A DNA stretch of 64,000 nt from Siphonodentalium dalli (Eukaryota; Mollusca; Scaphopoda; Gadilida; Siphonodentaliidae). Below, one piece after another: positions 12,801-60,800 of the stretch. Location of the stretch: contig CP136069.1 in assembly GCA_032622095.1 (NCBI GenBank), forward strand, positions 85,272,958 to 85,336,957. Reading direction: 5' to 3'. Below the pieces are notes generated by a model. It saw only the letters and a list, made by a program, of their open reading frames with translations. It was not told where the DNA came from and did no database searches. Position numbers and translations under genes: made by a program. Position 1 is the stretch's first letter. Every line of letters starts with the position of its first letter.

Positions 12801-15800
12801 GAGCTCAATCGGTTCGAGTCTATAAAGGACACACACATATATATATCATTTGTGGGTACCCGTTTCAAGGTGAAGATCACCTCGGGCGGAAAAACTGACC
12901 GGATGAAAATCTCCCCCGTTCCTAGGAAGCCCTAAGTACGTAAGCATCACACAACACGCTCATGTCTGGATACAGTCACGCTCACGTGTGGACCCAGACG
13001 TAATAATCACATTACACGCATACTCTCTTTATCAACGACACTGCGGATACTAACGCTCTTTAACTATCAACGCGATTAAAGGGGTACTGTACGCCATTTT
13101 CAATAAATTCCCGGTGATAACAACGATCTATTATCGATACTATATAGAAATATAAGTAATTTGAGTCGAAGATGTATTCTGTAAACGCTCAGGTTAATAG
13201 GCTATCTTAAAATTTAATAATTTAAAAGTTAATAATTTAATATAATTGATTTTATGGCTCCAGCCATAAAATGGCGTCTCTTAAAATTGGAATTTCCGTG
13301 TACAAAACGTAATCAAATTATAATTGAGGGATGCTGGATTAATAAAACAATTGCACACACGATCGTTTGAAACATTATGCTTATACGGGGAGAAAACCCA
13401 AGCCACTCATTGACTAGTGACCATACACTAACTTAAATGAGTATATGGGACTACTAAGCATATAATATAATGTTTATTTGATTCATTTGGTTGAAAACTG
13501 TACAAAAATTACTCGACAACGACAATTTGTATTTTTGCATTCCGGTAAATTTGCCATCCGTAACAATACTTCGTACTCAACAGACTTTCAAAAAATGGAA
13601 AAGTTGTTACCTTATTCTCCGACTCGGGGATTATAGAAACCAACAACAACATCTTGGGTACAGTACCCCTTTAACTCAACAGTGCCAATGACGGTCATTT
13701 TTGTGACTGGAAGTGGAGAATGGGTGCTCTGAGCTTCTCCAAAACGGCGGTAAACACTCAATCGGTCCGGCCATAGCCAACAGACAGACAAACAGAAGTC
13801 CCAAAATATATATTAGATTTATTTTTGAATAATTCATTGTTTGCATATGCTTTTAAATATTGTAAAACTAAACATTCAGTCAATCAATCTGACATTATAT
13901 TTCTTTAATCTAGTTGTGACCAGGGAGGAGATTGTGAATGTCTTTGTGAAGCTCTTGCAAACTTTCATGACGAATGCATAAGAATTGGGGTTCCAGTGAA
14001 ATGGCGAAGCCAGAGATTGTGTCGTAAGTGAATGATTTGATTTGGGCCAAAATATACATTGAAACCTCCGCATCATGTCTGATGCACATATTTATGTAGG
14101 CATACATGCACAAGAGGCAGGCTTCATTATTATCCAGATAATATCTTAACATAAATTTCCGAATGAAACATTTGGTTTGGTGGGTACCACTAATCATTGT
14201 TTCCATATCCATGCACCCATAGTTCCTCGACGGTACTACTCGCGGTTAGAGTTATGATTTAGTACGAGCAGAGCCCTCTATATATCAACCATGTTTTTCC
14301 AGTCGCGACAATTATATTAATATTCACAATACTCTTGTACACTTTGCCAAAACATTTACTGTTAAAGGCACGTGAGAAAATATTCATATTTGTTCCAATC
14401 ACCGTAAACAGAAAAACATTAACACGCACACAGTTTCGTTCATATATACCATGACCATCGCGTAAACATCATGTTATCACAGAGACCTACTATATTTTAC
14501 CTAAGCAAGAGCCTGATTGTGTTACAGAAGACAGCACAATGCTACTGGCTAATCACACACAAATGGCATAAACGCTCTTTATTAGTTCCATATCAGGAAT
14601 TCACCAACAAAGAACGCTCTTTATGTTTACCATCATAATATAAACAAACACCAGAAAAGTAACTTTTTATGCATAACAATGGTCAAACAGATGACAATAA
14701 CATACTGTTTATGCGATATTTCTTATTTGTATACGGACAAAGTCTGTCTACATTTTGATGTTCTTTCTGTTTGTGGCGGTTTTTGATGGGTGTAAATATT
14801 TTTACAGGATACCCACCGCCAAGGCCAACCGTACCTTTAAATGTGTTCGACAGTATATAACTGAGAGAAAAGATATATTAAACCAGTATAATAAAGGATA
14901 CTTTAAGCATTGCTTCATCAGATTCATGCAGTTGGATTTATGAAGCAATGGCTCTTACCATTTCCGTTGGTTGCCCTTTGGAATCGCATTAGGTTCTTAA
15001 AGCATACCGGGATACAGCTTGTGATTTTCCTTGTAGCAATACAATGTGAATACGGATACCAGTACCTGGCTTGTGGTCCTGCGTGTCCTCAGACCTGCGC
15101 CAACATCGCGTCAATCAATGACACGTACTGTAGCGATTCTCCGTGCAGAGAAGGATGTTTCTGCCCAGAAGGTTATGTTCAGCGAGGTTAGTTTTGTGCT
15201 AGTTATTGCAGTGCGGTTTTTAATCTGAAAAATTGGGTGTTCGTGTACGGTGGACAGTGTACAAATGGGTCGTGAGCTACCCTCGACGATGCGATTACAT
15301 AGAACAGACCCAGAACAGGCTAAGACGCCATGTTTTATGATCTACCTGTCCATTGATTTGACAAATCGCCGTGTCTTCACTGCCATGCCATTGTGAGTTG
15401 TTTTTTTTCGTTGTCTGATTCAACTGCGCATCCAGTTGTCGCCGCATTGTCCAGTCAATAGTCCGAACATGTATACTCTATTGTTAGTCTGGTTACTGAT
15501 TGACCAACGAATAAAAGTAAACTTGCAACATTCGGCTATCGACTCACAACCTACATAATTAGTATTCTGGATAAATATACACCTCAACTGAACCTAAGGT
15601 CAAAGAAAAAGAAACAGTTTGTCGTTTCCAATAATAACTTGGACAGTCGGTGACCGCTCTTTCTCCTACCATGTGCTCATTGTATGGAATACCCTGCCAT
15701 CATTTTCGTCTTTCCAAATTAAGTTGAAAACGCACTACTTAAAATGCAGCTACATTCGGCCATAGAAGCAGACCTATTTACATTAGTTACAACAAGAAAG

Positions 15801-18800: not shown

Positions 18801-21800
18801 GCGAACACACTAGGCTACAATTGCATAATTTGGAGCAATACGATATATGTATATTCTTTCGGTTTCATTGTCGCGTAACGGTCTACTCGAGTGAGAACGA
18901 GTCATAAAGTCTGTACAATAAACATGATTAGAACAAATCGTTGATACGCCGTGTCGTCTGGCATGTGTGGTGTATATACAAACTCCAAACATGTTAATAC
19001 TAAACGAATATCCGATTAGCTGCATGCATGAGAACGGCAGCATTCACGTGCGTGTGATCAAGGCATCGCGTTATCATTCATTCACGTTCTTGAGATCGCA
19101 AATCTGAATGCTGAGATGGATGTTCAATTAATTTCAATTGAAACATATTCATAATATATATGCACACAATATTTCGAATCTTATGGATTCATATTTTCGA
19201 TGTCATTCGCAGTCCAATTGATCAGTCTCAGATACACATAAACACTCGAAAACTCATCAGAACTCCTTAAGTAATACGCATATTTACTGCACAGAAACTC
19301 GGCGTTTGGTCGGATCTTCATCTGTGCCTTTCGGATCTTTCTGGACCGACAGTGGTCCCTTCATATCGCGCGGATATTGAGAACGACACGGATTTTTAAA
19401 ATTCTGTCAAATCCTATGCTTCATTGACAGATTCAACTATATACCGGCATTTGTTTTGGAAGCGTGGAAGTCCAGGAACTATACTAGTGAATGGATGTTC
19501 TCGAAAAATTGAGTGAGCAAAAGCAAAAACACCATTGAAAAAATTCTCCAAAAAAATAATAATGGTCTGATCTGGGAAAACTGATTGACAACTGGTGGAT
19601 AAATACTTCTGATTCGTGTGGTCATACACATACGATGCTCGATGTCTGTTTTACAATGCGAAACAAACATATCCCCATATCATATACGTGAAAATGACTT
19701 TCCCATTTCCTCGGCTTTGGCCGTATCCTCGGCTTTGGCCGTACCACGTACACGGGGGTGCATACTTGTATGATAAAATTGCAACCTTATAACATGCATG
19801 TCCTACTGTGATTGACCTAATGAACATACACATTGATGTTTTCTTTCTTATGTTACTATTCATTTGTAAGCCTTGCTTCAGATCTATAAACAATTATGTT
19901 CTCTCTTTCGCACCTAGATGGACAATGCGTTCAAGCTAATGATTGCACGTGCCTATATGAGGGGTATGAGTATCCCGCAGGGACAATTATGCGGGTCGAT
20001 TGTATGAACTGGTGAGTAATCTGATTAATATGAAGTGAAATACTTCGCAGGTGTGTTCAAACATGCATAGCAAGAACGTTACTCAATGCATGTTAAATAA
20101 TTATTATATAAACTGGAGGCACACACCGGCATATTTTATGAAATATATGTAGTATGCATCTTTTGTTCAGTCATTTATTTATCAGATTAACAAAGAGCAA
20201 TGGCTAATGTAATGTTTTACAGCAGATATTTACGTCAATAATAGTTTAATTTTACCTACTTCAAACGGGTGTATTGTAGCGACAAATAAAACATCAGTTG
20301 GAACTTGTAGGATAATCAATGTCTCCTTAAGATCTTGGTGACGCCAATTTGGTGTCATCGATCGTTAAATGGATCTCAGGATATAGGCCACTACAATCCC
20401 ATGGTTACGACACTGACTACCTGTTGCGTAATTTATCGCGATATGAATAAATAACTTATGGATTTAAAAAAAATTATAATACAGTGGGCTACTTGTCGCT
20501 CAGCAAGTTAGCCTCTTAATCCTGGTTTAAGTGAATAGTATCAATAAATAACATTGAGTGCTTGTTCTGTTTGTGTTACGAGAAATGCACGAAGAGAATA
20601 GTTTACCGACCAGCATGGAATATATTTTCAAAATTACACATTGTCAAGTATTAACTTATAGTATCATCGTGTCACAATTGTTCTCTGCTTTTCTCCGACT
20701 ACTAGGCAGACTGCCAAGTTAAATGGCTGTGTGATTTAAAGTTCCTTATGATTAGTTATAAAATATATAAAAGGTGAACGAATATTGTTAGCCTCGATTA
20801 ATCAATTCCATTACAACCTACATGTAGACAGATTAAAAAAATTTAAAAAGCAATATGGGTAAATGTCGAATAAAAAATACAATATAGTATTCATGTAGCT
20901 GACATCATGTATCACAGATAAACGAAACATAGCTGTGGTTCGAATGTAAGACATGTGTTTTGTTCGTTGTTGGTACTGTTCAATGCTTTGTTACACAGCT
21001 AGGGACTCTTTTGGTTGTCAATTGCCTCCTACATAGTCATACCTAGCTGCCATTGTTTACACCTGGAAGGCTGCTGTATGTTTGAGTGAAGCATAAAATA
21101 GGTTATGTGTTAGCAATACTAATCCATTCCATGTCAGACTATACCACCGTATACACAGGTTTTGGCTATATGATATAAAGCGCATTGCAATTAAGTTTTT
21201 AACACATCAAATAAATAGATCTTTTGCAAAAATATGAGGCAGGAAAAGGTTGAACATCATTTATACAGTAACTAAGCACACAAATGACTTATTGAAGTCA
21301 TTGAGGTTCCAGAATCAGTCCACGTGTTGCTGTTTGTGCACCACTTGACCACTGCATTATTAGCAATTCATGTAGTTGTCTTTTGCACCAATTAACCAAT
21401 TTGATTAATTGGTATCTGGATACGACCAAGTGGAACCAGGTGGGACTTTCATTATCGTTAACATCATCGACTGTGGGTGCTGTTTCTTGTGTTTTCCAGT
21501 ATTACTATTATTGACTATCTCTGTGCACCAAATTTATGCAGGGGTGTAATAAATAGACTAATCAATTGGTTCCGATTACATACTAATATGATAATAATGT
21601 ACTGAGTTGACAGTTCAAAGCCAAGCAAAACGACCGCTCAACTATTTATTCATGTAGATGTTTTATTTATTTACAGTGATTGCATATTTCAAACTGTCCT
21701 TATTTGTCTTACCAAATCGTCCAGTCATGCAAGACACGTCCTTTGTGTAAAATATAATGAAATGTAACTATTGGCTAATATACACATACACATGGAACAA

Positions 21801-24800
21801 CCATTGATATAAATTTGAGTACCTGAGTGCGGCATCTTTCTGTGCCTGGTGATGTACATCACACATAAAGATGCGGTAGATCATCCATCAAGTTGATAGA
21901 AATAAATACATGTAGTCTGTTATTCACATGCCAGGCAGTGGAATGCAATATTTCTTAGTTTCCAGCTTTTATATTGACTACCTTAATGTGATATCATGTA
22001 TCTAGTTTAAATAATAAAAAAACTTTTTTTTTGGCAAAAAGCTTTTTATGATTAGCAGCAGGTAGTACCAAATTAGTTTGAATTTATTCTGTTTAATTTA
22101 TAGTTTATTTCATTATCTTCAGTTTTTATGATTGATTAAAATCATCTTTTTAGAACTTGTCAAGCTATTTGTAGGTCACTCGGAGTCCCTGGGTAAGCCT
22201 TGATTGAAACTTGTTTTGGTTCACAATCTGGAACAGTGACGAATTATAGGAATCAAGCAGATGGGTTCAGTAAGAGTTCTGAAGTGATAACCCAGCACAT
22301 AGAACATTATATATAGTATATACTAAAGCATACAATGTGTATTACTATTTATGGGTCAAAATGTATATATTTTGAAAAATAAGGCATGAGGAAAAACAAT
22401 TTCAGCTTGTGGAAAAAAACACATTTTGAGCTAGTGATGACCCACACACCTCTATGTGTCCAGCACTCTTTCCACCACCCCCTGGCTTCGTACCATATTT
22501 ACGTACCAAAGATCGGGACTCATCAGCATCGTTTCACCATCATCAGTCGATATCACTTGTCATCCACGATATTTTGGTCAAGACACATTCATTTTGTTCT
22601 TGTAGCACGTGTTACAATGGGACATTTCAATGCGTTGGGGAAAGCTGTGCTACGACTTGTAATGATGACGAATACCAGTGTTTTAATGCTTCCGCATTGC
22701 AGTGCGTGGACACTAAATATGTTTGCGATAAAATTGCTGACTGTGACCAGGGAGAAGACGAGAAAAACTGCAGTAAGTAGAATAACAGTTTAGTTTAATG
22801 GGTCATATTTGTTCAACTTTAGGCTCAGATCGGCTTCTTCTGAAATGGGAGTAGGCCGGTGATACATTATACTGAGAATTAAACTAGTCAAACTAATAGA
22901 CAGTATTTATTGAAAACTTTAAACTTTCGATACAAAAGTGAGCATTATTATTATTATTTGTTCTATATAGTGTGGAAATGCGCAATAAACCCTCTTTGTC
23001 GCCTCTGAAGAATTACCATTTATCTTCCTATACTGGCACCAGATATACGAAATATACTAGGCCTGAAAAATATTGTACCATTTGAAGAGATTCTTGCAGA
23101 TGTTTTATTTATTATTGTCAGCTGTTGAATGTGCTGCTGGTTACACATCCTGCGACAGTGGTTATGCTTGTTACAACAGTTCCCAAATCTGCGATGGCAT
23201 CATCGACTGTAACAGCGAGATCGACGAACTGAACTGTATGTTTATAATACACATACTTGGAGGATTTACTAAAATAGCCCAATTTCGAACACATGAGTAA
23301 TCTCCACTTTAACAAATTAACCATATATGTTATTTCAAACCTACACTTATAATAACAACACAATTATGTTTATATTAAATACACTCACCACCGACAAGGT
23401 GACAAATACAGTAGGTTTATAGATATCAAACATAGTCATTCGTTGTAAAATTGGTTATACCATTGCCAACGATCCTTCAAATCGTCGACTAGAATATAAT
23501 ACTAGTATGTTAAAAAAAGTGGCTAGAAAGTAGTACAGTTGACGCACATGCCGCTCCCGCACACTGTATACACCTGAATTATAACTACAATCAAGAAGGT
23601 TCCAATATAGTCTGGATAGATCGAATACACCTGTAAATAATCATCTGTTACGAAACCTTTGCGTTGACTATGTAGGCAATCAATTATTTTATTTTCCCAT
23701 TCGCGAATTTTGGTGATATTTATAATCATTTACAAAATAAGTGATTGACACCAGTTTTGAATAAAGACACCGATTAACATGCACAATAAATTAATAAAGC
23801 TAATGAAGTTAATGAAGCTATTTAATAAGATTCTCCCTGTTTCGATATTAATCGTCCTGTGCGATATACAGTTGAAATTAGGTCGATTTTGTTGTAATTA
23901 ATCCAAACCGGCGTCGTTTTTGGATATATATTGAGATTGGTGCTTGCTACTGGACGAGTGGAATGCGGAACTATTAGAAAATACTTATTTACTGAAATAC
24001 TACTCCAAAATATCACTCACACTACATTTTTTCTTGGAATTGCAACATATTCATGTCTGACGGTAATGAACTTAAGTTCCTGTTAATATCATCCAGGTGG
24101 ACCGCTGCCATGTACCGCAACGCAGTTTCAGTGTGATAACGACCATTGTATACCTATCTCATTTCGATGTGATGGGGACCATGACTGCGGCTACAGTGAT
24201 CACTCAGACGAAGAAGGGTGTGTAGTGTCAGGTAAGTTTGAGGCCAACCACAAGATGAATTTAATTGCCATCATTTGAGAGTGTTTTGAATATCACTGAT
24301 CGTAACTGTAAATAGCGCGAATCCAAAGCACCAGTCAGGGGACGATAGCGCCAAAATCCGTTAACGTTGGCTTAGAGTATATCACTAACGAATAATGTGA
24401 TTAAATAAGGAATAGCGTGATTAAATAAGAATACTTTTAGTCATATCTTAAATTTTCGATCGAAAAAAAAAGACTAATATGAAAAATCTATTTTATTCAT
24501 TCCTTATATAAACTAAAATATCATTATCCTCATCACAGACGTCGGAATCATATGCCAATTGATGCTTACAATTTCCAATTCCCAATATCGAGACACATTA
24601 CCAAATCACTTCAACTCTCATCAAAAGTTTTCTACAACCCTCTTTGTCATCAGTTGCCGTGTTTTGGGATTGGTACGTACATCAGTCACACGAATACGTT
24701 TTGCCTACAAACTGTTTCACATTTCCTGCATTTCATAAAAGTATAGCAATCGCGGTGGATATATTTTTACGGTGGCATCCATGCATAGCCTGGTGATTTG

Positions 24801-27800
24801 TAAAACAGAGAGATAGGGAGAGTACATTTTCTCAATAAAATTAAATAGAAATCGCATGATGTGCAACTCTGTCGCAGTGTATCGGCCCAGATATCTTGAT
24901 ATTCCAGCAGTGTAATTGTGCACTGAAAATGATTTACGCTGATAGTATTAGCAGCTATACTGGATGTGTTGATTGTTTGTATATTGTGCGTTGCGTAACA
25001 CAGTTACTGGTCACCATGTATCTTAAAATAGGTTTCCATGCACTGTAGTGATATTAGATTAATAGCAGATTATATCATTACTGAGTATGTTTTACAATGT
25101 ATGTAGCTCATAAAATGGTAATTCTCACTCACTTGCATGTATGTCTCTGTTATTATTTTCCCAATGTAGGTTGCAATAAAATATGTTACTCCATTGACTC
25201 TGGTATTTAACATAAGATGTTTGAGTCGAAAACTTGTCGCTAAAATACCATTGATCAATATATATCAGTTCACATATCTATTGTGATGAATAACAGTTAT
25301 CGTGAAGACAGCAATACCTCCAAAACGTTCTGGAGATCCCCACCAGTATTCATTTAATATGAAGCTTGGTGGTTCGTGACTAATTTAATTAGCATTAAAT
25401 ACACATTTGGTGGTTAGACCAGTTTCAGATCACAGAAATAATATCACAGTTGTTCTATATAAGGGGTGTGATTATAAAACTCTGTGATTATTGTGATCAT
25501 ACTTGTCAGAACCCTGAATATATATTTAGCTCAACAGAATAGTGAAACAATGTGGAATTTTATGTTTATACCAGAGCACGAGGTTCTTCTATAGCATTTA
25601 AATTTTCAAGTATATGATCAGTTCCTTCATTGGAGGACTGATATGTGAAAATAATGAAGGCGTTCACACAGTCCAGCTTGTATTTAGTAACATAGCCTCA
25701 GTACATTGAAGGTCACATATCTCTATCTCTATTTCTATTTATAGTTCATTCACTCATTAGTTCATTGATCCTAAAGCAAACAACAAACATTCTAAACTTA
25801 GGGCCAATATAAATAATGGTATATAGAACACTTTCCAATAAATATAGTTGGCGCTCCATCGTGAAGACTATCCAAATTAAATGTTTATACACTTTAAAGT
25901 ATTTAACATGACTGCAAATAACCAAATAATTATAAATATAAGAAACGAACAAGGATAAGCCTCAATAATGCTCATTATGAAAGATATACAAAGGCGATCC
26001 ACACAGCTTATAAATTGGATAATAAATTTGAACATATGAAAGTGGGAAAATAGCAAGAGTATTCTATTTAAAGACATATTATGAACTTGTTCGGGTGCGT
26101 GAAACTGACAAGTTATTATTCAGGTGCTATGCCAACTGGAGGTGTGTAGCATTCAACTAAAATCGCCTAAAATCTCAAGCAAATCGACCATACCACTCCA
26201 TAGAAAACATCGTCTGAACTTTGCTCAATTGTAAATATTTACTACTCGATTCGGGACGCATCTATCGGCGATAAACTAAGGAATACTATTCGCCATCGAC
26301 AGTCACAGCATTTAATTAATATAATTTAGATATAATATTTGTAAAAAAAATAACTACTTTGAACAAGATTATTCCTCATTTCTATTTGATCACCGTACCG
26401 GAGTTTAACAAAACAACTCACATCTCACCTTATCGATAGGATTTGAGTCTGGATTAACGCTCCTCGCGTCATTACCATAAAATATGACTCTTTTTGTTAA
26501 TTTCCCCCGCTTTCTTAATTTGTTCCCAGAATTACATGAATGTGCACGTAATTAATAGTTATTGGTTAAGATGAATGGGGTGAATTAGGATTGAGTGGGT
26601 TGGAAGACAGAATGAAAGTAGACAACATAGCAAACAATTTTGGGAAGATTTTGAAGTTAATGAAGTGGGCGTGCTTCGTGAATTAAATGTGTACCGAATT
26701 AAAACGTTAGCTTTCATGCATAATTTCCTAATTTATTATATATACTAAAAATCAAGAGTTTATTACTATGGCACAATAGTTATGCAATTCTCTTCCATAA
26801 GAAAAAACAAATGCATATAAGCTTGTCTGCTACATGTACACCTAAATAAGATATAGTGAAGTGTCCATATCTTAAAACAATACATCTTATGGTTATGCTG
26901 TATACAGGTATTAGCGAAAATTCTTCTAAAGAGGGGATGGGTGTCTTAACTAATGAGTAAATCAATTTGAATAAAATATTAGAAAGCTGGGTACCCTAAA
27001 CATGTGAGAAACTTATCCCTTTCAATATTGAATGTATTCTACCATACATTTATGAAGGTATTCATTGGAATGGTCTATCATTCATTTGAAGGGGTGGTCA
27101 TGTAGTAAAAGCAGACGAGAGACAGAAAACGATAATGCAAGAACAGAATAATTTATATTTATTGGTGGAAAATGTTCAGATAATAAGTTGGAATTGTTAT
27201 ATCAACATTTCCTTCGGGAACTACTCGTCAGTGAGCATATAGTATAAAGGTTAAACAAGTGTGTGTCTGGATAGTTTTATGAACACCACCCCCTGGTTGA
27301 ACAACAAAAACTTGCCCGTATTCTTTTCATTTCAGTATGTGCGCAGTTGCGGTCATTTAAGTGTGACAATGGAGAATGCGTGCCACAGAATCGTACTTGT
27401 GATGGTCATGATGATTGCGGTGATGGCTCGGATGAGATAGACTGCGGTAATATATTTCTTTTTGTCGATATAACCTACGAGAGCTAGAATATTGAGGCTC
27501 CGGAAGGGCCGTGACATTTTAGTTCTCCAGCCATGAGGCTATTAACTGGCCCACTACACAGTTTTAAATCATGTGCAAAGGAATTTATCATATACTAAAT
27601 ATTAAAGACATTTTCTATTTTCAAGACATCCAGTTACAACGTGAACAATTTATCAGATGTTACCAGATGGCACTTCGCAATCATGTAGATATAGACAATC
27701 GTTAACTCTCCTCAGCGACGAACGAAGTTTCTTCTCGAATGAGATGCGGAGGATTATCTTTCTCGATGCGTAAGCAGTGAAATAATTGTCGCATCTCACG

Positions 27801-30800
27801 GGAGCAGAATCCTCGTTCGTCACTGAGGAGAGTTAACTAGTGTGTTTGTTATATTTTCCACAACAATTTGTCATGATTAAACTCTACAACAATGTATTTA
27901 TAAAATGTCTCAACTGAGAAGTGACCTAATGCTTCTATTGAAAGGATTACAAGGATACCAAAACAATCAAATACGGTAAATCCTTCACATAATTCATTCA
28001 TATTTTACTGTTGCCACACGAGCAATGATAGTATACTACCCCATATAAGGAACATAAAGTCATTTCATTCAATGATTTTATGTCGAGTATGGGATAAAAA
28101 GTTCGTCATAGCTGGAAGTAGGATAAACTCCTGGGAGCATGATAAACCCATGGGATTAGGATACCATTTTGTGACCTCCAGCGGTGATTATACGATCTTT
28201 ATTTTGGCAGAAAACGTTAACGAAAATATAATAAATATATAATATTACATGCCCCCCATCTCTCTCTCTCTCTACAGAGTGTACGTGTGAGAGTCCACAG
28301 ACAAAGTGCCTCTACAATTGTCACTGTATAAATCCAAGTCAGGTTTGTGATGGCACTCCAAACTGTAAAAACGGCACAGACGAACAAGATTGTGGTAAGT
28401 GTCACAAACTTATTTTAGTGAGTATTGTTGCGCCCATGATAATCCAACTGATTAAACCTACAGGTTACATATATACTATTTCTTAACACCGCTTTCTATG
28501 TTTCTATACTTGTTTGAAATTAGAATTTTAGCATGTGTTCAGAATGAAGGACACAGTCTTTCTCCGGGACCCAATGTTTGTTTGGAAAATAAACAAACAC
28601 AACATACACAGGAAGCCCCCAGAGGGCACAGCAATTTGTTTTGTGCTCGATGTATATAATTTATTAAAGTCGTTTCGTTCCTTCCGACTGCATGTATAGA
28701 AAGTGTCTTCCAACACCACTGACACATCGACGGCATTCACGAGCAACATAACTGATACGCGATCAAGGTATCATTACATCAAGAATGAACACATAAAGTA
28801 CTAATGTCAGTAATTTAGCTGATCTGGTGCACTATCGTGTGGCAAACTGGCAACCGAATCCGCGAACGACTATCAAACCCAATAGCATTCCGTCCACATA
28901 TATCATGTAATGACCAGTGTTCACGCTGGACCGAAAAAAACTTTAGCCAAATGAAAATTTTATTAGCCAAATGAAAAAAACTTTAGCAAAATGTTGTTTG
29001 GCCAAATTAAAAAGAACTTTGGCCAAATTAAATCATCGTTTTCTGTTCGGTTCACAATTAATGACTAAAACGTAAAATCTAACAGACACAGGTAAAATAC
29101 ACAATAATTTAAATAATGTTGATGAACTAGAAGTATTTGTATATATATCATTTATTAAAAAATTATTAATCTTTATGTGAAAGAGTGATTTGGGGGGGGG
29201 GGGAGGGATTGTCCCTCTTAATGTCATTATTTTTTTGTTTTATATCAATATCTTTTTTTAAATCATTAAATATTTATCCTTGCGAAAATATCTAAGTGAC
29301 ATCTGGAAACTAATAACTTAATATTGTTACGCCATTATCAAATTACAATCTGTCATAAAAGCATGCATATTATTTTGACTGTATCGGTATTGACGACAAA
29401 TAGCCAAAAAATATCTGTCGTGATTCACATTTGGCTGATTAAGCTATTGTCTTACACTTGGTGCTCATAAACCTTGACCGTCATAAATACAATGTCATCA
29501 TAAACATGCATTGTGCTGGCGCGCCGTGAGTGACCAGACAGACAATGGGCTGAATGGGGGATTAGGGGATTAAATGTAAAAATTAATAATGACCTTTTGC
29601 TACTTCGTGACGTAATCTTTCTCCAGATTAAAACAGCCTTTTACGAACAAATTGCTTATATACCGGCGTCAATGCACTTTACAAAACATTGCTTTCTTCA
29701 CATTGTCATAATTCAACCACGGTCGGTTTAATGTCCATGCGTCTTTGAATGTCCGTCTTGTGAAAACTAAAGATGATTGCATATCACTTTGTGATCGCTT
29801 GGTTGATAGAGTCGTCGATCAGGTTTCCCTTTGTACGATATTTCATAAGTACGACTGAAATAATGAAATACTTTCGTCACCTAACTTCGTCTTCGAATGT
29901 CGATGTATTGAGCGCTTTTATTAATTAGCTTTCTGGCTCCATGCTTTCAATCTCCATTTGGGTTCAAAAAAAGTTTAGCCAAAAGTTTAGCCAAATGAAA
30001 TTTTTATTAGCCAAATTCGAAAAAGATTAGCCATTGGCTAATTTGGCTACCGACAGCGTGAACACTGGTAATGACATAATATGCCAAACATAACACCATT
30101 CAGCAATACTGCTGAAAACACATCGACAGCTTCAGGCATATGCCACAAACAGCTATGATAGCTATACAGCTTATACCGGGTACACACTCTGCGTGCTTCC
30201 TGTGCATCTTTGCGTCGTAGTCCGTGGGCCAAACAAGATATTTTTCGAGTTGGCTGCACCCCCTCCAACAAAGGCTCTATATATCAAATTAAAGGTCATC
30301 ATATCGTGCTAAAAAAACGCAAAAACAGGGTTTTATAAGTTCCGATATGCGTCTTGATTATATACATGTATACGTGTACTGAATATATAAGTAACTCTTA
30401 ACCCTTTACCCAACAGAAGGGCCCTGTGCCAATGCATTCTCTTATATATGCGAGTCGACCATAGGTCGCCTCGCATATATAAGAGAATGCATTGGCTTAA
30501 CACATATTAAAGAAAAAATGGTAAAAAGTGTTAAAAAAAAGTTTTTTTTAGGCCAATGCATTCTCTTATATATGCGAGGCGACCTATGGTCGACTCGCAT
30601 ATATAAGAGAATGCATTGGCACAGGGCATAACTGTAACTATCACAATGTGCTCAATGAGCCGGTTCCAATGATACCCATATTTCCATGGTTTTATTGAGA
30701 CAGACCGAAGATAATTTAGGCTGTTAGGGCGTTTCTGGGCGTTCTGTTGGGTAAAGGGTTAAGCTCATATATATCCTTAAAATATACGACCTATCGTTAT

Positions 30801-33800
30801 GTCTCTGCAGGTGCGATTGACCCTGGTCCAATCAGCACGGATTGAGGTTACCTCACACAATTCGTGCTGAGTACACCGACTACGCGCACTCATGTGCTAG
30901 AAGCTATAACAGCTTGATTGTCCAATCAAACAGTAACCCTTCGGAGAAATCAGTTCCATTCTAAATCGTCACTCAAACGAATAGAACTATACTTACATAA
31001 CATCGAGAGCCCACACGCATACCTTGAGGTCAACTATGGGAGGGTCATTAATATCAACTTACACAGTATCACAAAGACGATTAGACTGAAAGAAGTATAA
31101 CAGAACGCGTTCCAAACCTTCCTGTCGGCAAACTGTTCCTGCGAGTTCGCTTTACATAACTTCGAAAAATATTCCTCAATAGTAAGTGTGAAGGGGCCAA
31201 TGTATATTAGTTTAGTTTTAGCTCGTGGGCTTTGTGTGTTCTTAGATATAAAGTGGTATCGAGAGGTATTTAGATATCTACATTTTATCACATTTTGAAA
31301 GATTAGATATTACAAATTGAGATAATAATGGGGAGGTTTAGATTGAAAACTTCTAACTTCGGTCGTCAAGAAATATCAAACTAAACTATTTGTCTTGGTA
31401 TGGCGGAGATCGTGGCCGAACTTAGAACTATAATATGATCATAGTGTCCGCTCATCTCCAACAGTGAATTGTTACATACGAGTAATGGCCTCATTCGTAT
31501 ACCATATTTCGAGTATCGTTGCCAACTAACTAAATCGCTGCATTATGTAGCACGGACTTCATTTGGGAATAGAACATAGCTGGTTGACTGTTGGATAATA
31601 ATTTCTCGCCTTGGATACAGAGAATAATAGTCTTCTATGCTTGGGTGACGTTTGTTCCATCTAAACCTCCCAATTTTCAACAGCAACTACTGCCACGTCA
31701 ACAATATCAACATCCACATCAACCAGCACCATATCAACGACTACTGCACCAACTACCACAACTACCACTGCGCCAACTACCACGACACCGCCGCCGGCCA
31801 CAAACACAACCACCACCTCAACAACACCCACAACTTCACCAACAACTACAACCACACCCACAACTACAACCACACCCACAACTACAACCACGACTACACC
31901 CACAACTACAACCACGACCGCACCCACAACTACAACCACGACCACACCAACAACTACAACGACACCCACAACTACAACCACGACCACACCAACAACCACA
32001 ACGACAACACCAGCAACTACAACCACAACGACACCAACAACCACAACGACACCAACAACTACAACCACGACCACACCAACAACTACAACCACACCAACAA
32101 CTACAACCACGACCACACCCACAACTACAACCACGACCACAACTACAACCACGACCACACCAACAACTACAACCACACCAACAACTACAACCACACCAAC
32201 AACTACAACCACACCAACAACTACAACCACACCAACAACTACAACGACACCAACAACCACGACCACACCAACAACTACAACCACACCAACAACTACAACG
32301 ACAACACCAACGACTACAACCACAACGACACCAACGACCACAACAACACCAACAACTACAACCACGTCACCAACAACTACAACCACAACCACACCAACAA
32401 CTATAACCACGACCACACCAACAACTACAACCACGACAACACCGACAACTACAACCACAAAACCAACAACTACAACCACGCCAACGACCACAACAACACC
32501 AACAACTACAACCACAACCACTACCACAACTACTCCAACAACTACAACAACACCAACAACTACAACAACACCAACAACACCAACAACTACAACCACCACT
32601 GCGCCAACAACCACAACCTTTCCGACTACTCCCACCACCTCATCAACAACATTGTCAACTACGACACCAGGTTAGTTATGTCGTTACGTCTAAACTCATG
32701 ATAATAACACTCAATCGCCTTACAAACCACGTCCAAAGTGTCGAAACGTATAATGCATAACTTTGTCAGTAATGACCACAGGGTGATCAATGATTGATCA
32801 TTCGTGAACTAATGTTCCAAAAAGAACTCATAGCGTGTTTAAAACATATCATGGACTTACTTCAGTGGATTAAACCGATGGGTTAGTAACCAACACTATC
32901 TCCACTAGAATAGTGTAGCGAGCGAAAATTCCAACCACATCGACTGTGTCATTTTAGAGAGCACAACGTGTGAACTATGCACAACTAAATATTTACTACT
33001 TTATTCGGACGATTTAGGCTACGTTCATACGCTGGCAAGTTTGCATGGTATGTTTTTGCGGGAATTTCGTCATACAAAACCACAAGGCGCCAGCATATGA
33101 CGGAACCGTTCATATAACATGCATATTTACCAAAGCGAAAGACACGAGAAGTAACATTTATCTAATTCCACTTGTAACAGTGATATTGGAATTTGCCTTC
33201 AAATACATGTATGATTTATTCTTGCGAGATAATTGCATGATATTTACAAGCAAATTCCGGTAGCATCGTTACTAGTGGAACTACAGAGATTTTACTTCGC
33301 ACGTAGTTAGCTGTGGCACATATGCACTTTATGTGCGTGTTTCCGTTCATATTATGGCACCATATCGTTTTCTACGACAAAATGCATGCAAACCATGCCT
33401 TACAAACATGTCATTGTATTAACGTACCCTTATTGGGTTTAAACATATACGGAAATGAATCCGCAAACAGTACTGTTATGGTCACTGAGTGTGTGTAATT
33501 CGCTTATAACAATGGCGCTGTTTTCTGCCTATTTTGATATCAAATTAGAAATAGAGAATAGTCACTTGATTGAACTGGTGATGTGAAATAATTCACGAGA
33601 GGCAGTGATGTTGTACAAACACGAGAGTTCATTGCGCTCGAGTGTTTAAATAATAGTCCTTGCCTCGAATGAATTATTCACGCCACCAGTTCAATCAAGT
33701 GATTATTCCGTTTATAATATTCCACCATAACATCTGATTTACGAAAAATCCGAATAATAGCCCCATTATATGACGGCGCATAAATTTTGATAGCGTGTGT

Positions 33801-42800: not shown

Positions 42801-45800
42801 GTTTATTGAGAAGTGGTGACCCACGAAACATGAAATTTCAGAAGCCATATAATGGTATAAAATTGTATTAAAATAAAAAAATATTTTGTGACGAATCCTT
42901 CCATTCATATATATATATATGATATTTAATGTTGCCTGCAATTAACCCAGTATGGCGACAATCAATCAAAAACTACTTTACTATAAACTATTCCACATTT
43001 ACCGATTCCTTTCTTTCGGCGCCCCGTTGATGCAAACCATTTGTAGTTTGAATAACGAGAATACATTGGCAATATTCACGCGTGTTCCCTTGTAGTGATT
43101 CGGCCACCACCACCACTTACGCCATGTCTAGCTGGACTCTACACATGCCTAGACTATACCTGTATTCCATTAAGCAGAACATGTGACAACGAGTGTGATT
43201 GTCCGGAATGTGAAGATGAAAAGAGAAAGTTATGCAGTAAGTCTACTAATGTGCAGATAATCTTCCAATCTAATAATAATAAACTGTTAAAAAATTTTAT
43301 ATTGTTTTTGTTTTCAACTATTGATATTTTATCGTCTATTATGTACTCCGTCTCGTGTTGTATTTGTAAAGATTCTCCGAAAATGCTTTCTGTTCTTGTA
43401 CAGTAGGCAGCAATTCTTTCTCGGACAAGGGCAATCCTAAAAACCTTTTGCTTGGAGTTGGAGTAAATGAGTTTTAAAACGACATATATTTCATACAATT
43501 TCAAAGTTAGAATAATGTGAATATTACATATCGGTGGTAAGAGAATTAAAAACATTCATAAAAGGAAGTTCATTGTTTTGACTAGAACTGGATACTACTG
43601 AAATCTGCAATCGAATCTATGAGTCATCTTCATTGTCAGTTAAACTTCACCAGTAGTAACCAACTAGCATTTTACATATTCAAGCATGTAGTAAATCACT
43701 AAATTCAGTATTGCATCGCCTCTTTAGCTTTTCGATATATCAATATCGAGATTTCAGACCAAAAGTAGATCAATAATCAACTTTTGTTGTCTATAACAAC
43801 AAATTCCCTATTAATTACTGGTTGGAACTAATGTGTGAGGCATGAAATGTCCAAAGATTGATGCGAGACACCTCCCCTATACCCATCTCATTATTTTATC
43901 AGTTTCACTTAATTTTGTTGCAAATTGATACATCACAAACGTTCTGATATGTGACCCGCCATATCAAATCCAGTCGTAAGTCGGGATTTTTTTTACCCTG
44001 TGCCAATGCATTCTCTTATATATGCGAGTCGACCATAGGCCGCCTCGCATATATAAGAGAATGCATTGGCCTAACAATGTTTTATCATTTTTTTTAAATA
44101 AATGTTTCTTACAATTTTTAGGACATAAAATAAAAAAACATCCATTACCCTGCAGGGAGCCCCACACATATATAGAAGCATATAGAAGAGTGTCGTCTGC
44201 TCATGTTTGTCTGGGGCTCTGTATGGGTGAAATTTTAAAATTGTTAGAGAATACAAGAAAAAATTATTAAAATTGTAAAAATTTGTTAGGCCAATGCATT
44301 CTCTTATATATGCGAGGCGACCTATGGTGGACTCGCATATATAAGAGAATGCATTGGCACAGGGTAAAAAAATCCCGACTTACGACTGGATTTGATATGG
44401 CGGGTCACATATATGGATTTTCGTTCCGTATAGTGTCTGCATACTATCATGCCCCTAAATAATCCTATACAACATATGTAAAAATGAATAGGTAGTCCCA
44501 AATCACTTGGAAATTGTTTGTTTAAAGATCTGAGATAGTTGTGTGCAATATTTTATATCAAGCAGAAAGATAACACACATTACATACGTTCAGAGTGCCA
44601 TTATGTTGATTGAAAAAAAAAACTATAATTTTTGAAAAGTAATAAGGCCCGTTGAATTTTGTAAATTCGTAGAATATGCTTATTTATTTCCGACGACAGG
44701 CGATCGATTTATGAATAATTATTATTTCAGAACTTTCGAAGTGTAAGGATATAGAGACAGAGCTAGTTTCCTGTACAGTATATGGCGAACCACATAAGTG
44801 TGTGTTATTGACTACTATTTGCGACGGAATAGCATTATGCGATAACGGCGAGGACGAAGCTGGTTGTGGTGAATATAAAGCAAATAAACTATACGTTGTA
44901 TTGTTTTGTGCCTGCACAGCCCTGGAGTTTTATACCAGCTGGTGTGCAGCATGGGTGGCTCATCAGTACGTGATTCATTGAAATATTCATCAGCTTATAT
45001 TAAATATGAGTTGGTGCTGAAAAAATGTCTGGGTGCTTACAAGACTCTCCATATCTGTGTATAATCTATTGGTTATGCTCCCGCGGTATGCAAATATAAG
45101 CTAAATATTCAACATATCCTAGCAGAAATACGCACATTATCGACATATAATGTGAAATATGTACATACTGTGATTATTTGGTTCTGAAATAAGCTGATAG
45201 TGGAGTTTTACCAGTTATTTCGTTTTATGGTGCGGGCCACAGTGAAAACATCTGTTAAAGAGCGTACACATTAAAGTCCTAAGTTGGCTCATGTGTGTCA
45301 TTGTCGGCGCATAATCGGCGCATAATCGGCCTAGAATTGCCTCATTATGAGTCGATAATGTGACTATAATATTATCATTTTCAGCACATTATGGACTCAA
45401 GATTAGGCCATTCTAAGCAGATTATCGACCTCAAACAAGTTTTTATTATAAGCAGATATTGTGCTACTTTTCGGGAGAACAGGATGAAGTATTGGTAAAG
45501 ATTCATCCTCTTGATTGAATAATGTTAGTTTCCAAATTATGAAGAGTGTGACAGTTGGCCTTTTTTAGTATGGAAATCCTATCCAATGTTTATGATAGTA
45601 CTTCTAAAAAAGACACAATGGTATAGTCTATAATGTGTTGCATTTCTTCATTTACTTTACTTTTTCTTTTCCAATTGTATTGTAACAAATTCCATTGGTG
45701 AAAAGTGTTAAATGTAACGCCAACTCGAATCTATATACGACTTGTCTTCGCTCTAAATATATGAAAATAAATTTAAGTAAAAATACTTAGAGTAAATACT

Positions 45801-51800: not shown

Positions 51801-54800
51801 ATTAGAGCATTACTGTACACCATCTTATTATATGCTTTTCCATAAATTAGCCGACAATTACGAAGCGTAGATTGTATTAAAGTATTTGATGTACAAGTCT
51901 CCAGAATTGATAATATAAATAAGATTGTAACATTTTATTAACGAGCTTCCGAACATTCTCGGGGTCTTTTTCAAGTGTAATGGCAGTTTGCGTACATCAA
52001 AACAATGTCAATGCCGTTAAAGTCAGCGACATGGAAAAAATAAGCTGCCATAGCGTGCTCGGAAACTCCGATCTCGGTTGAGTCCGTTTCTGATAATGTC
52101 AAGTTTTTCTATCATCTTCATCTCACTGATCTTTCTTTCCCTGATACTCCGCAGACACCCACATAGGACTGTAACGCGCCATTCTGAACCGAGTGCGACG
52201 CATATATATAATATTACTATAATAAATAATATTAAATATAATAGTAAAATTAATCAATGGCCTGTATGATTTATGTTCATCCACATTACCTATTCAGTCT
52301 ATGAGAATATTACGCTTCAGATACATTTTGTGCACACCATTCATGCATTAATACATAAACATCTTCATGACATCCATGCTATTAGCTCATAAGCTATTTA
52401 AATACATGTAATTTGAACCTAAGATTAAAACAATCTGTTTTCTTCATCTTTTAGTTCGGTAAATTAAGCAAATACTGCCTTAGTACAATTCAAGAGGGGT
52501 TCACGCTCATCGTCAAGATTTGGGCTGTGAAGGATAAAATGTGTATCATCCTGTGGTTCTCCTTTGGAGTGAGACCTTTCAACTTCAAAATTTTAATTTT
52601 ATGTCCGACCAATATCTGACCAAAATATATTTAAATTGTTCTGATAGTTTCCAACCAATTATCAGTTTTACTGCAGAGTTTCTTGGACCACGTCTGAGGC
52701 TGAAATGGTCATCAGTTGCAAATTGTTCAACCATAGGTGTTCTGGCTGGAAATATCCGAAAGTTAGAATGTTTGAGCAACCAGTTGGAAAATTGTACCAT
52801 GTGGGGCACAGGAGCAAATTGTTTCCGGGCCCGGCTGGTCTGCTGGTTGCCCACTTCCAACACTTCAGATGCCGTTTCTGTTGTGCATTTATAAGCAAAT
52901 GGTCTTTTTGGTGTCCATGCGAAATTCAATGAATTGGTCTTAAACCTTTACAACTGTTGTAAATTTCTATATAGATACGCTCCCTAATTTAGAAAAACTG
53001 TGTCTGCAAACGATAAACTTTCTAGTATACATGTGGTTACTGTTTGGAAAATTGCCAAACTAATTTTCATGTGACGTTTTGTCACAGCGTCAGGCATGAA
53101 CTTTCCAACTGCTGAACATTATAACTACTCACTAGTCTCGTCTCGTTTTGCTAAACGAATAACATTGATCGCGGACACAGCTATACATGTAAATACACCA
53201 AATTTTGTCTTGTCGGGTAAAGCATCTCAAAGAATATCTGTCACAAAGTGACGAACAGCGCGCGTGTTTAGAGACCTGTCGTTTGCCAGAATGAGATCGG
53301 ATCATTGGTACATGATGGATACTTGTTTGGATTTGTTTGTAATATTGACATTCCAAAAATACTTAAAGGAACAACAGCAACCACAACGACACCAACAACT
53401 ACAACCACAACGACACCAACAACTACAACTACAATGACACCAACAACTACAACCACAACGACACCAACAACTACAACCACAACGACACCAACAACTACAA
53501 CCACAACGACACCAACAACTACAACGCCAACAACTACAACCACAACCACACCAACGACTACAACCACAACGACACCAACAACTACAACGCCAACAACTAC
53601 AACTACAACGACACCAACAACTACAACCACAACGACACCAACAACTACAACGCCAACAACTACAACCACAACGACACCAACGACTACAACGCCAACTACA
53701 ACAACCACACCAACAACATCAACCACAACGACACCAACAACTACAACCACAGCGACACCAACAGCTACCACCATAACCACTCCAACAACTACAACCACGA
53801 CCACGCCAACAACTACAACAACGACACCAACAACTACAACCACAACGACACAAACAACTACAACCAAGACCACACCAACCACTATAACCACAACGCCAAC
53901 AACTACAACCACAACGACACCAACAAGTCCAACCACTACGATACCAACAACTACAACCACAACGACACCAACAACTACAACCACGACCACACCAACAACT
54001 ACAACCACAACCACACCGACAACTACAACCACAACACCAACAACTACAACCACAACCACACCAACAACTACAACCACAACACCAACAACTTTAACCACGA
54101 CCACGCCAACAACTACAACGACAACGACACCAACAACTACAACCACAACGACACCAACAACTACAACCACGACATCACCAACGACTACAACCACAACGCC
54201 AACAACCACAACCACGACCACACCAACAACTACAACCACTACCACACCAACAACTACAACCACGACCACACCAACAACTTCAACCACAACGCCAACAACT
54301 ACAACCACAACAACACCAACAACTCCAACCACTACGACACCAACAACTACAACCACAACGACACCAACAACTACGACCACGCCAACGACTACAACCACAA
54401 CACCAACAACTACAACCACGACCACACCAACGACCACAACGCCAACAACTACAACCACGACCACACCAACCACTACAACCACAACGCCAACAACTACAAC
54501 CACAACGGCACCAACAACTCCAACCACTACGAAACCAACAACTACAATCACAACGACACCAACAACTACAACCACGACCACACCAACAACTACAACCACA
54601 ACCACACCGACAACTACAACCACGACACCAACAACTACAACCACAACAACACCAACAACTCCAACCACTACGACACCAACAACTACAACCACAACGACAC
54701 CAACAACTACAACAACGACCACGACAACACCAACAACTACAACCACTACCACACCAACAACTACAACCACGACCACACCAACAACTACAACCACAACGCC

Positions 54801-57800
54801 AACAACTACAACCACAACAACACCAACAACTCCAACCACTACGACACCAACAACTACAACCACAACGACACCAACAACTACAACAACGACCACACCAACG
54901 ACTACAACCACCATACCAACAACTACAACCACAACGACACCAACAACTACAACCACAACGACACCAACAACTACAACCACTACGACACCAACAACTACAA
55001 CCACAACGACACCAACAACTACAACCACGATCACACCAACCACTACAACCACAACGCCAACAACTACAACCACGACAAAACCAACAACCACCACCACAAC
55101 CACACCAACAACTACAACCACAACCACCCCGACAACTACAACAACAACACCAACAACTACAACCACGACAATACCAACAACTACAACCACAACGACACCA
55201 ACAACTACAACCACAACGACACCAAAAACTACAACCACAACGACACCAACAACTACAACCACAACGACACCAACAACTACAACCACAACGCCAACAACTA
55301 CAACCACGACCACACCAACCTCTACAACCACTACCACACCAACAACTACAACCACGACCACACCAACAACTACAACCACAACAACACCAACAACTCCAAC
55401 CACAACGACACCAACAACTACAACCACGACCACACCAACGACTACAACCACAACACCAACAACTACAACCACCACCACACCAACAACTACAACCACAACG
55501 ACACCAACAACTACAACCACTACGACACCAACAACTACAACCACAACGACACCAACAACTACAACCACGATCACACCAACGATTACAACCACAACGCCAA
55601 CAACTACAACCACAACAAAACCAACAACCACCACCACAACCACACCAACAACTACAACCACAACCACCCCGACAACTACAACAACAACACCAACAACTAC
55701 AACCACGACCATACCAACAACTACAACCACAACTACAATCACAACGACACCAAAAACTACAACCACAACGACACCAACAACTACAACCACAACGACACCA
55801 ACAACTACAACCACTACGCCAACAACTACAACCACTACGACACCGACAACTACAACCACAACCACACCGACAACTACAACCACAACCATACCAACAACTA
55901 CCACCACAACCACACCAACGACAACAACCACGACGCCAACAACTATAACAACATCAACACCAGCAACTACAACCACAACCACACCAACAACTACAACCAC
56001 AACGACACCAACAAGTCCAACCACTACGACACCAACAACTACAACCACAACGACACCAACAACTACAGCCACGACCACACCAACAACTACAACCACAACC
56101 ACACCGACAACTACAACCACAACACCAACAACTACAACCACAACCACACCAACAACTACAACCGCGACCATACCAACAACTACAACCACAACGACACCAA
56201 CAACCACCACCACAACCACACCAACAACTACAACCACAACCACCCCGACAACTACAACAACAACACCAACAACTACAACCACGACCATACCAACAACTAC
56301 AACCACAACGACACCAACAACTACAACCACAACGACACCAAAAACTACAACCACAACGACACCAACAACTACAACCACAACGACACCAACAACTACAACC
56401 ACAACGCCAACAACTACAACCACGACCACACCAACCTCTACAACCACTACCACACCAACAACTACAACCACGACCACACCAACAACTACAACCACAACAA
56501 TACCAACAACTCCAACCACAACGACACCAACAACTACAACCACGACCACACCAACGACTACAACCACAACACCAACAACTACAACCACCACCACACCAAC
56601 AACTACAACCACAACGACACCAACAACTACAACCACTACGACACCAACAACTACAACCACAACGACACCAACAACTACAACCACGATCACACCAACGATT
56701 ACAACCACAACGCCAACAACTACAACCACAACAAAACCAACAACCACCACCACAACCACACCAACAACTACAACCACAACCACCCCGACAACTACAACAA
56801 CAACACCAACAACTACAACCACGACCATACCAACAACTACAACCACAACGACACCAACAACTACAACCACAACGACACCAAAAACTACAACCACAACGAC
56901 ACCAACAACTACAACCACAACGACACCAACAACTACAACCACTACGCCAACAACTACAACCACTACGACACCGACAACTACAACCACAACCACACCGACA
57001 ACTACAACCACAACCATACCAACAACTACCACCACAACCACACCAACGACAACAACCACGACGCCAACAACTATAACAACATCAACACCAGCAACTACAA
57101 CCACAACCACACCAACAACTACAACCACAACGACACCAACAAGTCCAACCACTACGACACCAACAACTACAACCACAACGACACCAACAACTACAGCCAC
57201 GACCACACCAACAACTACAACCACAACCACACCGACAACTACAACCACAACACCAACAACTACAACCACAACCACACCAACAACTACAACCACGACCATA
57301 CCAACAACTACAACCACAACGACACCAACAACTACAACGACAACGACACCAACAACTACAACCACAACGACACCAACAACTACAACCACGACATCACCAA
57401 CGACTACAACCACAACTCCAACAACCACAACCACGACCACACCAACAACTACAACCACTACCACACCAAAAACTACAACCACGACCACACCAACAACTTC
57501 AACCACAACGCCAACAACTACAACCACAACAACACCAACAACTCCAACCACTACGACACCAACAACTACAACCACAACGACACCAACAACTACGACCACG
57601 CCAACGACTACAACCACAACACCAACAACTACAACCACGACCACACCAACGACTACAACCACAACGCCAACAACTACAACCACGACCACACCAATAACTA
57701 CAACCACTACCACACCAACCACTACAACCACAACGCCAACAACTACAACCACAACGGCACCAACAACTCCAACCTCTACGAAACCAACAACTTCAATCAC

Positions 57801-60800
57801 AACGACACCAACAACTACAACCACGACCACACCAACAACTACAACCACAACCACACCGACAACTACAACCACGACACCAACAACTACAACCACAACAACA
57901 CCAACAACTCCAACCACTACGACACCAACAACTACAACCACAACGACACCAACAACTACAACAACGACCACGACAACACCAACAACTACAACCACTACCA
58001 CACCAACAACTACAACCACGACCACACCAACAACTACAACCACAACGCCAACAACTACAACCACAACAACACCAACAACTCCAACCACTACGACACCAAC
58101 AACTACAACCACAACGACACCAACAACTACAACAACGACCACACCAACGACTACAACCACCACACCAACAACTACAACCACAATGACACCAACAACTACA
58201 ACCACAACGACACCAACAACTACAACCACTACGACACCAACAACTACAACCACAACGACACCAACAACTACAACCACGATCACACCAACCACTACAACCA
58301 CAACGCCAACAACTACAACCACGACAAAACCAACAACCACCACCACAACCACACCAACAACTACAACCACAACCACCCCGACAACTACAACAACAACACC
58401 AACAACTACAACCACGACCATACCAACAACTACAACCACAACGACACCAACAACTACAACCACAACGACACCAAAAACTACAACCACAACGACACCAACA
58501 ACTACAACCACAACGACACCAACAACTACAACCACAACGCCAACAACTACAACCACGACCACACCAACCTCTACAACCACTACCACACCAACAACTACAA
58601 CCACGACCACACCAACAACTACAACCACAACAACACCAACAACTCCAACCACAACGACACCAACAACTACAACCACGACCACACCAACGACTACAACCAC
58701 AACACCAACAACTACAACCACCACCACACCAACAACTACAACCACAACGACACCAACAACTACAACCACTACGACACCAACAACTACAACCACAACGACA
58801 CCAACAACTACAACCACGATCACACCAACGATTACAACCACAACGCCAACAACTACAACCACGACAAAACCAACAACCACCACCACAACCACACCAACAA
58901 CTACAACCACAACCACCCCGACAACTACAACAACAACACCAACAACTACAACCACGACCATACCAACAACTACAACCACAACGACACCAACAACTACAAC
59001 CACAACGACAACAAAAACTACAACCACAACGACACCAACAACTACAACCACAACGACACCAACAACTACAACCGCGACCACACCAACGACTACAACCACA
59101 ACGCCAACAACTACAACCACGACCACACCAACAACTAAAACCACTACCACACCAACAACTACAACTACGACCACACCAACAACACCAACCACTACAACGA
59201 CACCAACAACTACAACCACTACGCCAACAACTACAACCACTACGACACCGACAACTACAACCACAACCACACCGACAACTACAACCACAACCATACCAAC
59301 AACTACCACCACAACCACACCAACGACAACAACCACGACGCCAACAACTATAACCACATCAACACCAGCAACTACAACCACAACCACACCAACAACTACA
59401 ACCACAACAACTACAACCACAACGACGCCGACAACTACAACTACTGCGGCACCAACGACTACAACCACAACGCCAACAACTACAACCACAACGACACCAA
59501 CAACCACAACCAAACCAACGACTACAACCACGACCACACCAACAACTACAACCACTACGACACCAACAACCACAACCACAACGACGCCAACTACTACAAC
59601 CACTACGACACCAACAACCACAACCACAACGACACCAACTACTACAACCACTACGACACCAACAACTACGACAACGACCACGCCAACAACTACAACCACA
59701 ACACCAACAACTACAACTACGACCACGCCAACAACTACAACCGCGACCACGCCAACAACTACAACCATAACAACACCAACAACTACAACCACAACGACAC
59801 CAACAACTACAACTACGACCACGCCAACAACTACAACCACAACGCCAACAACTATAACCACAACGACACCAACGACCACAACAACTACTACTACGCTGGC
59901 AACAACGACCACACCTCCTCCGTTCACATGTGATGCATCTCAGTTCCAGTGTGCGTCCATTAATATGTGTATCGACCAAGAATCTGTGTGTGATGGATTT
60001 TGTCACTGCGTTGGTGGATGTTCCGACGAAAATACCCCCTCGTGTGGTGAGTCACCAGATGATTGTAACTCATATTAACGTTTTTATGATTCATAGTTTT
60101 CGTGACGTTATGCTTCTAATAATGCTTACGTTGCTGGTCATTCTACATATACATATTTATGTTTATGACAGTGGAATATTAAATCTTTTTAGAAACGCTT
60201 CGACGGAATGTTTTCACATATCGAAGGCAACTATGATAGCTCAAATGTCTAACCATATTTTGTTACTCATTCAACTTCGCAGTATCGCGTGCTTTTTGGG
60301 GAATATTCCTGTTATGGTTTGCATTGTTAAACCTTGTTTTTTTGCAGCGCTTAGAACTTGTACAGACGAGGAAACAGAGCTGCCAACATGCACAGTGAAT
60401 GGTGATAGTCATCCTTGCATACAGAACCAGTTATTATGTGATGGTACTCCATATTGTGAGGGTGGAGAGGATGAACTTGATTGTGGTAAGGTTACTAAAT
60501 TAACCACCAACTTCATCTCAATGTGCTTTTCCGATTAGCACATGGCCAGTTCGATAAGTAATGAGAGTTTATTCAAGCTCAGTGAAGTGAGTACATTTAA
60601 AGCAATGGACACTCATACTGAGTTCGTGCCTCCAGAACTCTGACATATAGTTTGCGACATAAAGTCACAACATCCATTATGTGTCCGTTGATGAATGAGT
60701 GTCCAAGCTTTAACAACGATTCGCGATTCTCTTTTCAGTGTCAACATCTCCACCGTCCATATTACCAGGAACCGAAGAACCAATACGTAAGTTGATTATA

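Follow-up and report, generated by a model that had tools for sequence, protein, structure and literature searches.

We analyzed a stretch of 64,000 nucleotides of the genome of the scaphopod Siphonodentalium dalli (here named the window), corresponding to positions 85272958 to 85336957 of contig CP136069.1 (C9), together with related regions of the 2.23-Gb genome (9 contigs); positions without a contig prefix refer to the window. The window carries, on its + strand, a gene with predicted VWD, C8, TIL, and LDLa domains and a giant predicted exon (53369 or 53378 to 60046) in which a Thr/Pro tract of the mucin type (Pro/Thr/Ser-rich, PTS) is fused to an LDLa-like domain. The open frame was confirmed from 53272 to 60078 (+). 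Within it, positions 53371 to 59922 comprise 2,184 codons (here named tract 2, being the second of five such tracts at the locus), 1,803 of which encode Thr (82.6%) and 294 Pro (13.5%), with no stop and no Cys; the 87 minor residues are Ile (33), Lys (17), Ala (16), Ser (16), and five others. The tract consists mainly of eight-codon units with a terminal Pro, a form found exactly in 198 units, and runs uninterrupted and in frame into a 41-residue LDLa-like domain with eight cysteines (59923 to 60045), where six are usual for LDLa. This is the near-pure Thr/Pro tract in one open exon, in frame with an eight-cysteine LDLa, that an earlier reading of the window from its letters (the sequence-only reading) had described.

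The exon end at 60046 is in phase 1 and is set by a good donor site, TGTG|GTGAGT (60047 to 60052). At the other end, the acceptor lies at 53368/53369 by homology to a duplicate of the gene, both giving G|GA, or nine bases further on at 53377/53378, also in phase 1. The exon had been proposed to start and end in phase 1, which holds for its end; at the start, the proposed site at 53378 is in phase 1 but weak, and 53369 is an alternative. An independent transcript starting near 53305, which the sequence-only reading had named among the outcomes that would speak against it, is unlikely, as the first in-frame ATG of the open frame is at 53434, inside the tract.

The openness of the frame was rejected as proof of coding. 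Over the same 6.55 kb, one other + frame contains a single stop and one − frame contains none, and only 0.1 to 0.2% of single base changes would create a stop in the Thr frame. Because the repeat leaves other frames open and few changes yield a stop, openness counts for little. The scarcity of Ser and absence of Cys (16 and 0 of 2,184 residues), correctly noted before, were likewise rejected as a sign of selection. In the genetic code, Thr to Cys takes two base changes, and since this distance is combined with recent block duplication of the array, no special cause is needed; codon distance and the neutral ratio of changes reported below suffice.

Better evidence for coding comes from the duplicate gene and from constraint on the fused LDLa-like domain. 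The duplicate lies on the same contig, 123 Mb away and on the − strand (C9:208.11-208.27 Mb), and its exons align one by one with those of the window gene. Its tract-LDLa exon is entered in phase 1 at ccgcag|GA, is left at the same TGTG|GTGAGT, and encodes, in the same frame, a Thr-rich tract 2 of 65 residues followed by the same LDLa, so that tract 2 is about 34 times longer in the window gene. The LDLa-like domain is 91% identical between the two genes (56-residue query including the tract end), and its 41 codons show 0.041 non-synonymous (Ka) and 1.40 synonymous (Ks) substitutions per site, a ratio of 0.03. Ka/Ks across 15 compared segments, a set that leaves out the tracts and some shared exons, including those at 43.1 and 76.8 kb, ranged from 0.02 to 0.32 (pooled, 0.105), with only one segment below the LDLa-like domain of tract 2. 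Because the same exon occurs in the duplicate and the Ka/Ks of its LDLa-like domain is low, the tract-LDLa exon is, judged from the two genes, inherited coding sequence. The shared exon make-up also supports the earlier placement of the exon inside a VWD-C8-TIL-LDLa gene.

Furthermore, the duplicate has counterparts of tract 1 (a 244-amino-acid open frame), tract 3 (a 386-amino-acid open frame), and tract 4 (at least 591 amino acids, its start lying outside the examined piece), and the domains downstream of the tracts are common to both genes. Comparison of the two genes suggests that what was inherited is a glycosylated spacer at a given place, not its length. Of the further VWD matches in the genome, two more distant relatives, at C9:92.92 Mb and C8:79.43 Mb, showed no such tract in the 30 and 26 kb examined, respectively. 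As side observations, several copies of a dispersed element, recognized from translated matches, sit in duplicate introns, the window gene carrying at least one (30391 to 30628), and reverse-transcriptase-like open frames were seen by eye in duplicate introns at about C9:208.19-208.2 Mb.

The DNA of tract 2 records how such tracts change. Internal block duplications reach 1,284 bp with 7 mismatches, and each of the 10 offsets at which 300 bp align with 95% identity or more is divisible by three, although these offsets are not independent and the repeat is itself built of triplets. Recent internal copies differ by 12 non-synonymous and 6 synonymous changes (neutral expectation, 67:33), counted in 6 of the 17 listed block pairs, which were picked for few mismatches and partly overlap. 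The block duplications would be recent relative to the divergence of the two genes (Ks of ~0.8). Pairs of tracts within the window gene share 36 to 103 nt of exact DNA, compared with 13 to 24 nt shared with the tracts of the duplicate. A 36-mer taken from the unit has at least 55 exact copies in the genome; those found all lie within the locus, in the coding orientation, with at least 27 in tract 2, at least 4 in tract 3, and at least 24 in tract 5. The simplest reading of this sharing would be exchange among tracts of one gene; alternatively, the tracts may have grown independently from a common simple unit. On the comparison with the duplicate, tract 2 is an expanded, inherited PTS segment.

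Upstream of the tracts, the window gene encodes a VWD domain split between two exons (starts at 4328 and 6290, end at 6513), a C8 region composed of an exon matching Pfam C8 (8899 to 9042) and the next Cys-rich exon (13914 to 14028; C8 by position only), and a TIL exon (15037 to 15188) with a following Cys-rich exon (from 19918 to 20012). The Pfam matches for VWD, C8, and TIL all exceed the curated cut-offs. Five LDLa exons follow at about 22.6, 23.1, 24.1, 27.3, and 28.3 kb (22606 to 28399), four of which exceed the Pfam cut-off, the 23.1-kb exon falling below it with 21.5 bits. Tract 1, of about 328 codons, forms an exon of its own with a T-rich acceptor (31684 to 32672). Between tracts 1 and 2 lie two LDLa-like exons at 43.1 and 44.7 kb (43096 to 44869), both below the cut-off (23.0 and 17.7 bits), and the tract-2 exon is followed by an LDLa exon (60348 to 60490) that barely exceeds it (24.3 bits). 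Between exons of the VWD/C8 region, a 22-nt unit is repeated in tandem 11 times with 99% matches (9343 to 9590).

Tract 2 does not stand alone; four further tracts lie at the locus, giving five in about 110 kb. Besides tract 1, these are tract 3 (C9:85352573-85355627; ~1,018 codons), tract 4 (C9:85373717-85379978; ~2,087 codons), and tract 5 (C9:85402108-85414424; ~4,100 codons in 12.3 kb), all on the + strand. All five tracts in the 149 kb scanned encode Thr on the + strand, a scan of the − strand gave no tract, and about 29 kb of tract contains a single frame break. Summed, the tracts amount to about 9,700 codons if all five belong to one gene. The frame break, near 85407770 in tract 5, is a genuine lesion, an intron, or an artifact of the assembly. 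Tract 5 starts 65 kb past the window end, and its exact 36-mer copies are often 798 nt apart. The frame of tract 4 continues into an unnamed domain (C9:85373717-85380337), which occurs twice in the duplicate (208127139 and 208109046, in the pieces C9:208126900-208130500 and C9:208108800-208111800), each copy standing apart, downstream of its own Thr-rich frame. Another conserved domain, at C9:85347131-85347412 after the LDLa exons, exceeded the cut-off of no Pfam family; in the genome it was matched only here, in the duplicate, and by a single partial copy close by. Three downstream pieces, located at 74, 76, and 86 kb, likewise gave no Pfam match above a cut-off.

Taken together, these results make it likely that 53369/53378 to 60046 is the mucin-domain exon of a large VWD-C8-TIL/LDLa glycoprotein that is probably secreted; tract 2 is real and very probably coding. 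Support comes from the frame, the same exon in the duplicate, the great excess of silent over amino-acid changes in the LDLa-like domain, and tract positions common to two genes. With phase-1 splicing, the Thr/Pro segment would sit between LDLa exons, and its frame would run directly into the next LDLa.

Several observations weigh against this interpretation. The LDLa-like domain scores 17.7 bits (E, 0.0043) against Pfam PF00057, under the curated cut-off of 24.1; its single-sequence structure model is poor (mean predicted local distance difference test score, 47). The neutral ratio of changes means that residue-level selection within the tract is not detectable at any single residue, and the near-identical blocks make mis-assembly of the 6.5-kb array possible. 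That the five tracts form one gene is an assumption, and exchange among them would be evident in the window gene only, as the tracts of the duplicate share just 14 to 30 nt pairwise, barely above the sharing between genes. Exon use is a prediction from DNA alone. The symmetric phase, 1 at both ends, would allow the exon to be skipped with the frame preserved, and its acceptor is doubtful. The scoring matrix was built from the 32 acceptors of 16 exons present in both genes, without tract 2, and each pair was left out of the matrix when it was itself scored; branch points and enhancers lie outside this model. The 53369 site scored below all 32, and the 53378 site exceeded 3 or, with another pseudocount, 1 of them. 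The acceptor of the duplicate is ordinary, exceeding 11 or 12 of 32. Since both window sites are weak, the length of tract used is uncertain. Expansion of the tract may have removed the original acceptor; the introns just upstream of tract 2 show no homology between the two genes beyond the shuffled level (local score of 32, equal to the maximum of 50 shuffles).

A weak entry site leaves room for other uses of the exon. Splicing could enter the tract at an in-frame AG at 55964, 57092, or 59369, yielding about 1,320, 940, or 184 residues, or a mixture. Tract 2 contains only 12 AG and 3 GT dinucleotides, yet these three AGs are in phase 1 and score 3.3 to 3.6, above 10 to 12 of the 32 real acceptors, and the ordinary acceptor of the duplicate has no good equivalent before the window tract. 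The internal sites lack a T-rich stretch, however (55964 has 3 T between −20 and −4, compared with 5 to 12 in the 32 real acceptors), and we regard such partial use as possible but doubtful. Skipping of the whole exon in the window gene, with expansion having damaged the acceptor and only the duplicate producing the tract-LDLa exon, would fit the weak acceptor and the symmetric phase, and pairwise Ka/Ks is blind to a recent loss in one copy. Given an intact donor and an LDLa Ka/Ks among the lowest of the 15 segments, we consider it improbable. Finally, the tract might be a non-coding, satellite-like array that is open by chance, in line with the almost or wholly open frames on both strands and with the neutral ratio of changes. 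This is very improbable: the in-frame fusion of tract and LDLa recurs in the duplicate, the 36-mer copies found (55) keep to the locus and the coding strand, and any transcript with the LDLa in frame would carry at least 184 tract codons because no AG-derived exon start exists from 59370 to 59943.

The nature of the protein was assessed from its domains and from the literature. The gene contains what is expected of gel-forming mucins of the MUC2/MUC5 type, namely, VWD-C8-TIL assemblies and large PTS exons rich in Pro and Thr/Ser, as well as the VWD/TIL region followed by tandem LDLa known from SCO-spondin. The sequence-only reading had preferred the latter, a fibre-forming protein with a giant glycan spacer. 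An invertebrate SCO-spondin carrying a spacer would agree with VWD-C8-TIL followed by LDLa repeats, a set likened to the first third of SCO-spondin in a study of limpet mucus (PMC7333891), and vertebrate SCO-spondin likewise combines VWD and TIL domains with tandem LDLa (PMC8487547). Chick SCO-spondin differs by 27 thrombospondin-type repeats and FA58C, EMI, and CTCK domains, and the available text mentions no mucin tract (PMC8487547). A thrombospondin-type pattern, used without a positive control, gave no match in the + frames of this locus (149 kb) or of the duplicate (97 kb). An LDLa pattern run alongside it matched just three times in the window-gene locus. The five tracts also give the protein a mucin-like look. 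The best solved relatives of the VWD exon are chains of FCGBP, MUC5AC, MUC2, and VWF, which do not decide the matter, as no SCO-spondin chain is among the listed matches. We did not retain the fibre-forming label and think a SCO-spondin identity unlikely.

Nor is the giant glycan spacer a new architecture, as had been proposed. Exon 30 of human MUC2 (PTS-TR2; 8,793 bp) encodes a tandem repeat of 2,254 residues with 55.5% Thr and 21.7% Pro, i.e., one giant Thr/Pro exon in a VWD protein, and its repeat number varies (PMC6269512). Unlike in MUC2, the tract described here is flanked by an LDLa-like domain, has a unit of 8 rather than 23 residues, contains 82.6% Thr, and is one of five at its locus. 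Among mollusks, limpet P-vulgata_3, with three VWD, two C8, two TIL, and five LDLa domains, has been described as SCO-spondin/hemolectin/mucin-like and was found in pedal mucus, with expression in pedal-sole glands (PMC7333891). The likeness is by description only; the limpet sequence comprises 1,604 residues without a start codon, and the available text mentions no Thr/Pro tract (PMC7333891). Spondin1 of the snail Cornu aspersum, a spondin-like mucus protein and likely mucin with repeating Ser/Thr-rich and Cys-rich regions, was also compared by description, and LDLa modules and tract length are not mentioned in the accessible part of the report (PMC10475054). No VWD-LDLa protein with a multi-kilobase Thr/Pro exon was recognized among the papers listed by a literature search that mostly left out subscription journals, nor was such a case found in the accessible part of a review of snail mucins (PMC8542881). 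An O-glycosylated spacer between disulphide-rich modules has its analogy in mucins (PMC6269512; preprint PMC13345508). Tract 2 is a variant of the mucin PTS exon. Three features stand out: an LDLa-bearing locus with so many tracts of such length, a pair of genes that encode 65 and 2,184 residues at equivalent positions, and an acceptor of doubtful quality.

Mucin tracts are well established as O-glycosylated spacers. In the mucin-exon interpretation favored here, dense O-glycosylation of Thr would turn tract 2 into a bottle-brush, stiff and hydrated, that spaces disulphide-bonded modules in the way of mucus or adhesive mucins; we infer the splicing in RNA, glycosylation, secretion, multimerization, and role in mucus. 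The rod could span about 0.55 micrometre at 0.25 nm per residue, the value assumed in the sequence-only reading, if the whole tract is spliced and densely glycosylated. Its length and unit sequence would turn over via in-frame block duplication, to which exchange among tracts of the same gene probably adds. A further, tentative picture, which we think unlikely to hold in full, is that at least five tracts (~9,700 codons) alternate in one gene with VWD, LDLa, and unnamed domains at inherited positions; that in the window copy exons lying tens of kilobases from one another exchange sequence, so that their tracts change in concert; and that tract 2, having grown ~34-fold, overran its own acceptor, so that rare in-frame internal AGs now set the mucin length.

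The gene pair, whose tracts at this position are 65 and 2,184 residues long, is a clean system for studying mucin length evolution and function. Our results further suggest that a VWD-C8-TIL-LDLa protein of the limpet-mucus/SCO-spondin kind can be a genuine mucin in which several glycan spacers occur, and that the design, meaning where the tracts lie, outlives their sequence.

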